A stretch of DNA of 64,000 nt from a virus, in IMG/VR virus record IMGVR_UViG_3300033144_003384, positions 1-64,000 of that record; one strand, 5' to 3'. Within the stretch, counting starts at the first letter, position 1. Each line of letters begins with the position of its first letter. Below, one piece after another: positions 978-21,113 of the stretch. The notes beneath the pieces are model-generated. The model had not been told where the DNA came from, made no database searches, and worked only from the letters and a program-made list of their open reading frames with translations. The translations under genes and the position numbers were made by a program.

Positions 978-1466
978 TCAGGGCAGCTCCTGGGCCATCG
1001 TTTCGGTCAAAAACGGGTCAATCGTTGACATTTTGACGTCAGAAACGTCACTTACCTCTCTAATTGCCTCTAACTGATCTATTGCCAGAAGCAGCCGCCA
1101 AATATCGGGATGACCGAGCAAGTCCTCATACTCAACCCGATATTGGTTCCTCCGACCAACACGCGTACGCTGCACGATCCCGTGTCTGACGAGCGACGAA
1201 ACGGCACGCTGCACGTTCGACTCAACGGTGCCCAACCGAACGGCAATCTCCCGGATCGTGAGGTCCGGGTTCTCCACGATGACGACCAACGTTCGCCCAG
1301 CTACAGTTAGTAAGGGCAGTATGTCTTTACGCTGATAGGATATGAGCCTCACATCGGACAGAGCCAGCATGACATCGTTGGTTATAGACTCATCCTCTAT
1401 GCCGTGTTCCTTCAGTACGGCCGCAACTGCGTCCGCTACAATATGTGAGCGTTTTCCTTCAGTCAT
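978..1466 (-). CDS. Winged helix-turn-helix transcription regulator
   Basis: A 162-residue protein starting at ATG 1466 behind AAGGA. Residues about 60-120 read as a winged HTH: a helix, LTIREIAVRLGTVESNVQRA as the recognition unit, then a wing (RHGIVQRTRVGRRNQYRV), as in MarR or ArsR-type regulators. It is the only - strand gene in the first 6 kb, so it is a candidate phage repressor or switch protein. The tandem 12-bp repeat just upstream (1499-1522) could be its own operator. No effector-binding domain is recognised. Confidence 0.75.
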   Translation of the reverse strand: MTEGKRSHIVADAVAAVLKEHGIEDESITNDVMLALSDVRLISYQRKDILPLLTVAGRTLVVIVENPDLTIREIAVRLGTVESNVQRAVSSLVRHGIVQRTRVGRRNQYRVEYEDLLGHPDIWRLLLAIDQLEAIREVSDVSDVKMSTIDPFLTETMAQELP

Positions 1467-1498
1467 GTTCGCGAAATCCTTGCTTAGTGGTTTGCATA

Positions 1499-4903: not shown

Positions 4904-5127
4904 CATCGAAACCAAATAGCTTCTCCAACGACCGTCTCGACGACCACGAAGACCAGTTGAACGAACTAAGGGAACGGGTGGAAGGGCTCAACCAGATCGT
5001 TGCGGAGCTACATGACACAATGCAGACGGTACGTCATAGGTTGGGACTCATTCGAGAGGAATCCGAACCAGCGACTTGGGGCGGCAACAAGCAGTCAATC
5101 GGATACAACAACAGGATCGGACAATAA
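4900..5127 (+). CDS. Small coiled-coil protein
   Basis: 75 residues from GTG 4900, overlapping the previous stop as GTGA. Residues 10-50 carry a heptad pattern (LDDHEDQLNELRERVEGLNQ and on), so it should form a dimeric or trimeric coiled coil. Function unknown. Confidence 0.7.
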   Translation: MTSKPNSFSNDRLDDHEDQLNELRERVEGLNQIVAELHDTMQTVRHRLGLIREESEPATWGGNKQSIGYNNRIGQ

Positions 5128-20555: not shown

Positions 20556-20578
20556 CCGGGGCTAATTGGGCACAAAAG

Positions 20579-20604
20579 AAAGGCCGCCCGCTAAGGCGAC
20601 CCTT
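20579..20604 (-). terminator. Terminator of the RNA operon
   Basis: On the - strand AAGGGTCGCC and GGGCGGCCTT pair around TTAGC, followed by TCTTTTGT. It lies 48 bp past the tmRNA-like 3' end. Confidence 0.65.
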
Positions 20605-20651: not shown

Positions 20652-20731
20652 TGGTGGAGCTGGCGGGAATCGAACCCGCTTCCAGACATTTGCACTTCGG
20701 CATTTCAGTCTGTCGAAACCATTACAGCCCC
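20652..20731 (-). ncRNA. tmRNA-like RNA lacking the mRNA-like domain
   Basis: Read on the - strand, the 5' end GGGGCTG pairs with CAGCTCC before an encoded ACCA; the third pair is G-U, the alanine identity element shared by tRNA-Ala and tmRNA. TGGTTTCGACAG follows the acceptor strand exactly as in tmRNA, in place of a D-arm. CAGAC and GTCTG form the helix-2 equivalent, and GCGGG-TTCGATT-CCCGC is a perfect T-arm. In tmRNA about 270 nt with the tag frame and pseudoknots sit between the two helix-2 strands; here only 20 nt do (about 20681-20711). The RNA could be aminoacylated but cannot encode a tag. Confidence 0.75.
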
Positions 20732-20732
20732 T

Positions 20733-20812
20733 TGGTGCCAACCTGCGGAATTGAACCGCAGCCCCTTTCCCGATATCACTCGGGGGTTACCTTGGGTGTT
20801 TATCCCGTTGGC
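20733..20812 (-). tRNA. tRNA-like element, anticodon unclear
   Basis: GCCAAC (5') pairs with GTTGGC (3'), followed by encoded ACCA; TGCGG-TTCAATT-CCGCA is a perfect T-arm. The D-arm cannot be drawn, position 8 is G, and the anticodon-like arm CCCGA/TCGGG has a 6-nt loop GTGATA. It is therefore a degenerate tRNA or a tRNA-like structure. It lies just upstream of the tmRNA-like RNA in the same transcript. Confidence 0.5.
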
Positions 20813-21016
20813 ATGGTAGTTGCTCGATCCCCCTCCGGAGAGTGGGGGCAGTAGGGAGGCTATCCGCGTCTTACCTTTTCAGCAGGGCTCGTATTAGGTT
20901 TCCCCGCGCAGTCCCCGTTGGGGGCGATGCGGGTTTCGCTGCCGGAGGTTCACTCCCGTCCCCACACTCAGGGTGGGGATCGAACTGTCACTATTCAGTT
21001 GTCAAGGTGCTTTACT
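20813..21016 (-). ncRNA. Structured non-coding leader of the RNA operon
   Basis: No gene fits here. The transcript can form CCCCAC/GTGGGG (near 20962-20985), a nested helix CCCGC...GCGGG enclosing GCCCCC/GGGGAC (20899-20930), and CCCCC/GGGGG (20829-20848). Identity unknown; it could be a further RNA product or processing signals. Confidence 0.45.
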
Positions 21017-21084: not shown

Positions 21085-21113
21085 TTGACACACTATGCTC
21101 AGTAGTATACAAT
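21085..21113 (+). promoter_or_regulatory. Promoter of the 21120 gene
   Basis: TTGACA (21085-21090), 17-bp spacer, TACAAT (21108-21113). ATG 21120 is 6 nt away. Confidence 0.88.

Follow-up and report, generated by a model that had tools for sequence, protein, structure and literature searches.

A transfer-messenger RNA reduced to its tRNA-like domain in a tailed phage, and its relatives among viruses

What can a phage gain from a transfer-messenger RNA (tmRNA) that carries no message? The question is raised by a stretch of viral DNA of 64,000 nucleotides (the window), which forms positions 1 to 64,000 of an IMG/VR virus record of 83,756 bases (IMGVR_UViG_3300033144_003384). On its minus strand, at 20652..20731, lies an 80-nt gene for a tmRNA that consists of the tRNA-like domain (TLD) only. 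A first-pass annotation, made from the sequence alone, had proposed such a cut-down tmRNA, and every element of the RNA that it named is in place. The RNA matches the Rfam tmRNA model RF00023 from end to end, and scores 71.9 bits where the gathering score is 47 (Infernal; E-value 4.9e-27 on 6 kb and 5.3e-26 on the whole window). The alignment spans model positions 1-374, with about 310 positions in the middle shrunk to 18, and it is the sole above-threshold Rfam match of the window.

Read from 5' to 3', the RNA is composed of GGGGCTG, TGGTTTCGACAG, GTCTGGA, the T-arm GCGGG-TTCGATT-CCCGC and CAGCTCC-A-CCA. The sequence and the cmscan alignment place the 5' strand of the acceptor stem (GGGGCTG) at 20725..20731 (-), with G3 at 20729. 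It forms 7 bp with CAGCTCC in the 3' segment at 20652..20662 (-), which contains U70 (20658), A73 (20655) and an encoded CCA. The third pair is indeed a G-U, as had been noted; G3·U70 is the alanine identity pair, and the alanine identity elements are in place. The conserved D-loop motif TTCGAC, which marks the SmpB side of tmRNA, is found at 20712..20717 (-), again by sequence and alignment. Helix 2 is formed by CAGAC (20708..20712 (-)) and GTCTG (20683..20687 (-)), as seen in the fold and in covariation over relatives, and the canonical T-arm was aligned by cmscan at 20663..20679 (-). Between the strands of helix 2 the fold leaves a loop of 20 nt (20688..20707 (-)), the length given earlier, in the place of the mRNA-like domain. 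Within this loop a small hairpin, TGC-CGAAGT-GCA, is predicted at 20691-20702 (-), and similar hairpins can be seen by eye in many relatives. The mRNA-like domain, with its pseudoknots and tag frame, is missing, and no tag-like frame was found anywhere in the 80 nt. The RNA has no message and therefore offers no template for a tag, in agreement with the initial view that it cannot tag.

The minimum free energy fold shows the acceptor stem, helix 2, the inner hairpin of 3 bp and the T-arm. The energy of this fold is unremarkable (z -1.5), and hence the case for the element rests on the covariance model and on comparison. ARAGORN called neither the element nor any other gene in the window. An ordinary tRNA (RF00005) was rejected, since ARAGORN called no gene in the window and the Rfam clan was won by tmRNA; Infernal thus calls the RNA a tmRNA, not a normal full-length tRNA. 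The permuted tmRNA model RF04321 stayed below its gathering score, with 21.6 bits over an unrelated span.

For the comparison, IMG/VR was scanned for TTCGAC, a short gap, GGA and the start of a T-arm, and matches were kept if they had an acceptor stem of 7 bp and a T-stem of 5 bp. Further scans covered longer loops and cellular genomes (GTDB species). All counts of relatives are lower bounds among the matches listed from IMG/VR. The first scans yielded at least 71 distinct sequences and the added scans brought this to at least 80, which form at least 56 clusters at 80% identity; almost all of them lie in viral contigs. In 3.24 Mb of loci, 115 sequences passed the structural filter, whereas the same DNA reversed or shuffled gave none. 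The structure recurs in many unrelated phages. The relatives fall into two length groups, 65-72 and 76-94 nt, and the scan for longer loops added few: 75 forms measure 65-94 nt and only five 102-126 nt. A GCN codon followed by a stop occurs anywhere in the loop of just 12 of the 75 forms of up to 94 nt. The CCA end is encoded in about half (40/80); in the others it could be supplied by the CCA-adding enzyme of the host.

TTCGAC, GGA and the pairing of acceptor and T-stem were fixed by the pattern or the filter and are not independent evidence. Other features are free of this restriction. G1-C72, G2-C71, G3·U70 and A73 are present in 80 of 80 relatives, and in 71 of 71 sequences from the scans that did not specify these bases. 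Acceptor positions 4-7 vary freely, and the acceptor and T-stem sequences as a whole differ widely. Helix 2 was neither part of the search pattern nor a filter criterion. Its first five variable positions are paired in 99, 95, 95, 90 and 86% of the 80 relatives, compared with 42-49% when the 3' strands are shuffled, and each of them shows at least five types of pair. Relatives of the short class often have a GCAA, GCGA or TTCG-type tetraloop at the end of helix 2. Selection is needed to explain why helix 2 changes in a compensatory way while G3-U70 and A73 stay fixed, and why there are two size classes.

Some relatives are found in cultivated phages. The Streptomyces phage isolates LuckySocke, GiJojo, pSt2308 and BRock harbor intact, unannotated copies inside their tRNA arrays. 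These copies score 57-64 bits with RF00023 and are syntenic, lying between tRNA-Val(tac) and tRNA-Ser(gct); in GiJojo the hypothetical protein gp44 is annotated over the RNA (L354:4001-4081). The same neighbours occur on a metagenome contig (L176). Elsewhere the RNA follows tightly packed tRNA-Trp, -Met and -Asp (L050), stands within an array of 21 tRNAs (L029) or lies 4 nt from tRNA-His (L089), and many other relatives have no tRNA nearby. Nearly all of the 49 other viral records carry a single TLD-only RNA. One record (G031, L224) has two copies 3.5 kb apart, at 1395-1471 (-) and 4941-5016 (-), the second with one extra base in the T-stem. A full-length RF00023 match was found in none of the 49 other viral records, and an SmpB partner gene in none of the viral TLD records searched.

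In the GTDB species genomes 22 pattern matches were obtained, of which four passed as TLD-only: a Cellulosimicrobium strain and metagenome-assembled genomes of Mycobacterium, Victivallaceae and Bacillota. All four also carry a full-length tmRNA (130-170 bits), and their TLD-only copies would be consistent with prophages or phage contigs. Several of the remaining GTDB matches look like permuted tmRNAs, and the rest failed the filter. BLAST of the TLD against phage isolates led to Rb1, X1, PaMx31, CcrPW, SirSheldon and Tunturi_4, which have full-length or permuted tmRNAs and hence a different thing. An ARAGORN tmRNA with a tag at L023 has only the 3' end in common with the TLD and appears to be miscalled. 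Two observations were made along the way. In the Tunturiibacter phage Tunturi_4 a release-factor gene with an RF-1 domain lies directly upstream of the permuted tmRNA (L219:1618-1965 and 1970-2379), possibly a phage cassette for ribosome rescue. In the Mycobacterium phage SirSheldon a GOLLD RNA (L222:2801-3214, 216 bits) that is missing from the annotation table of the record lies near the full-length tmRNA and tRNAs.

The record that contains the window encodes a large terminase, a portal and major head proteins, and the virus is hence a tailed phage. It has 14 tRNA genes at its end, beyond the window (L223:16637-19605; record 80.6-83.6 kb). The nearest terminases are those of Gordonia phage GMA6 (37%) and Brevibacterium phage Cantare, and the helicase is nearest to Arthrobacter phages (32%), which makes an actinobacterial host likely. 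The phages related through the helicase do not have the RNA. A search of the full record with RF00023 gave no second tmRNA. The record also has no SmpB gene, and SmpB of the host would be needed as partner.

What, then, might the RNA do? On balance we lean towards an alanine-charged decoy that binds SmpB and damps trans-translation of the host. A decoy of SmpB, EF-Tu or stalled ribosomes was among the roles suggested at the outset, and it is the best function on offer. After tRNA-like processing, the RNA would receive alanine from the host AlaRS via G3-U70 and would be bound by host SmpB and EF-Tu. It would then take up SmpB and stalled ribosomes in competition with the host tmRNA, and during infection trans-translation would tag and dispose of fewer phage products and mRNAs. 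The direction of this effect is taken from a published molecule. Mycobacteriophage DS6A has a TLD-only tmRNA, published in 2009, and an RNA similar to it, chargeable or not, is described as strongly inhibiting tmRNA in E. coli, perhaps by titration of SmpB (Mao 2009, as cited in PMC4131195 and PMC11915505). It is because of this report that a decoy appears as the most likely role. Several points weigh against it. The pair G3-U70 is invariant, although an RNA that only soaks up SmpB could do without it. The phage of the window has no close relative in the collections, and its distant terminase relatives GMA6 and Cantare do not have the RNA. BRock has TTTTGAC instead of TTCGAC, and the copy in Alone3 looks decayed; the RNA is therefore dispensable in some lineages.

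The strict alanine identity argues that charging matters in nature, and this keeps a second explanation a serious, albeit rather unlikely, rival. The charged TLD could enter ribosomes stalled at mRNA ends together with SmpB, take over the nascent chain by peptidyl transfer and free the ribosome without a tag. The phage would keep its ribosomes cycling, and truncated products would not be marked for proteolysis. Strict G3-U70 and A73 imply a charged molecule, which a sponge does not require, and several copies are part of tRNA arrays in phages whose many tRNAs build up the capacity for translation. Mitochondrial tmRNAs that lack a coding sequence (CDS) have been retained alongside SmpB and are proposed to act in some such way where mRNAs are incomplete (PMC11915505). 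However, the RNA has no resume or stop codon that could recruit release factors, and there is no evident route by which a peptidyl-TLD would be released. A release factor with an RF-1 domain was found in none of the 50 TLD records, that of the window included, and the DS6A-like molecule, as it is cited, inhibits tmRNA. A broader form of this idea, which we put forward tentatively and consider doubtful, is that the RNAs make up a large selected viral class spread across unrelated phages, with two architectures (one of 65-68 nt in which a tetraloop closes helix 2, and one of about 77-85 nt that has an extra hairpin), and are used in charged form as a one-amino-acid device for tagless rescue rather than as mere inhibitors.

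The other explanations fare worse. Alanine identity is the most conserved feature of the RNA, as would be expected of a general competitor of tRNA-Ala for AlaRS or EF-Tu that has nothing to do with SmpB or ribosome rescue. A plain tRNA-Ala would suffice for this and would have no use for TTCGAC and helix 2, which are specific to tmRNA, and such a competitor is improbable; the conservation of TTCGAC is no independent argument here, being part of the search pattern. It is also quite improbable that the RNA was left behind, without function, by a deletion in a full-length tmRNA of phage or host. Full-length and permuted tmRNAs do occur in other phages, and the Alone3 copy and the second copy of G031 look damaged. 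However, the compensation within helix 2 and the constancy of G3-U70 and A73 across at least 56 clusters call for selection, as do two tidy size classes with a tetraloop-closed form of 65-68 nt, and forms of intermediate length are as rare as given above. That the phage integrates into host ssrA, a known integration site of genomic islands (PMC11915505), and carries the tmRNA 3' end as its attP is hardly credible, since the copy has the 5' half of the TLD as well as the 3' end, the relatives differ greatly in their acceptor and T-stem sequences, and no tyrosine integrase was found in 44 of the 50 TLD records, among them that of the window.

The surroundings of the element were inspected as well. 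A minus-strand promoter had been assigned to 21023; the sigma-70 scan does not support it and calls only a plus-strand promoter at 21085, while by eye a minus-strand TTGACA with a poor -10 can be seen. A possible terminator at about 20574-20601 (-), a 7-bp hairpin GGTCGCC/GGCGGCC followed by TTTCTTTT, was likewise recognized by eye and is absent from the list of the terminator scan. One nucleotide upstream of the TLD lies a second tRNA-like element of 81 nt with CCA (20733..20813 (-); fold z -2.8, reached by 0 of 200 shuffles). Its acceptor and T-arm are canonical and its D and anticodon arms are non-standard (6-nt loop). It has no ARAGORN or Rfam tRNA match, and its exact T-arm/acceptor pattern occurs nowhere else in IMG/VR; we regard it as no more than a candidate member of the same system as the TLD. 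Further upstream, the GC-rich region 20814-20990 (-) is predicted to form an extensive structure that includes the long-range stem CGATCCCC/GGGGATCG. Together with the tRNA-like element it reaches a fold z of -3.0; it matches no Rfam family and may be another non-coding RNA on the same transcript.

Dozens of unrelated viruses share the TLD-only design, which points to a common and overlooked viral way to interfere with ribosome rescue or to short-cut it. At least 80 distinct sequences with invariant alanine identity mean that phages repeatedly keep a message-free tmRNA, a form that current tools largely miss. Whether phages block or short-cut the ribosome rescue on which bacteria depend becomes testable, and lab-grown Streptomyces phages already carry unannotated copies. 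The natural variants already provide a panel in which to look for the minimal RNA accepted by SmpB and AlaRS.

How does this RNA relate to known systems? The first-pass annotation knew of no such minimal form; this was wrong, because the kind of RNA is already known through DS6A (Mao 2009, as cited above), the only phage TLD-only tmRNA named in the open literature that was covered. The two are likened by description: both are phage genes of little more than a TLD, in different phages. What is new here is the breadth of TLD-only tmRNAs among phages. This breadth, the invariant G3·U70, the two architectures and the Streptomyces isolates were not found in the open literature, which was the scope of our search, and an earlier survey may exist in subscription papers or preprints. 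CDS-less tmRNAs have also been described in jakobid and other mitochondria (RF02544) and, with about 65 nt, in plastids of Mallomonadaceae (PMC11915505). Like the RNA of the window these are TLDs without an mRNA-like region, but the mitochondrial gene is usually permuted, whereas the window RNA is one-piece and viral. Permuted two-piece tmRNAs (RF04321, RF01849, RF01850), which occur in phages too, resemble it in having a TLD whose gene contains a short link close to helix 2; in contrast to the window RNA, they have a coding piece, and upstream of their TTCGAC the 5' acceptor strand is missing. The standard one-piece tmRNA (RF00023), of which mycobacteriophages have full-length examples, has the same acceptor with G3-U70, TTCGAC, helix 2, T-arm and CCA. 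Its mRNA-like domain, which holds the tag frame and the pseudoknots, is replaced by 20 nt in the window RNA.
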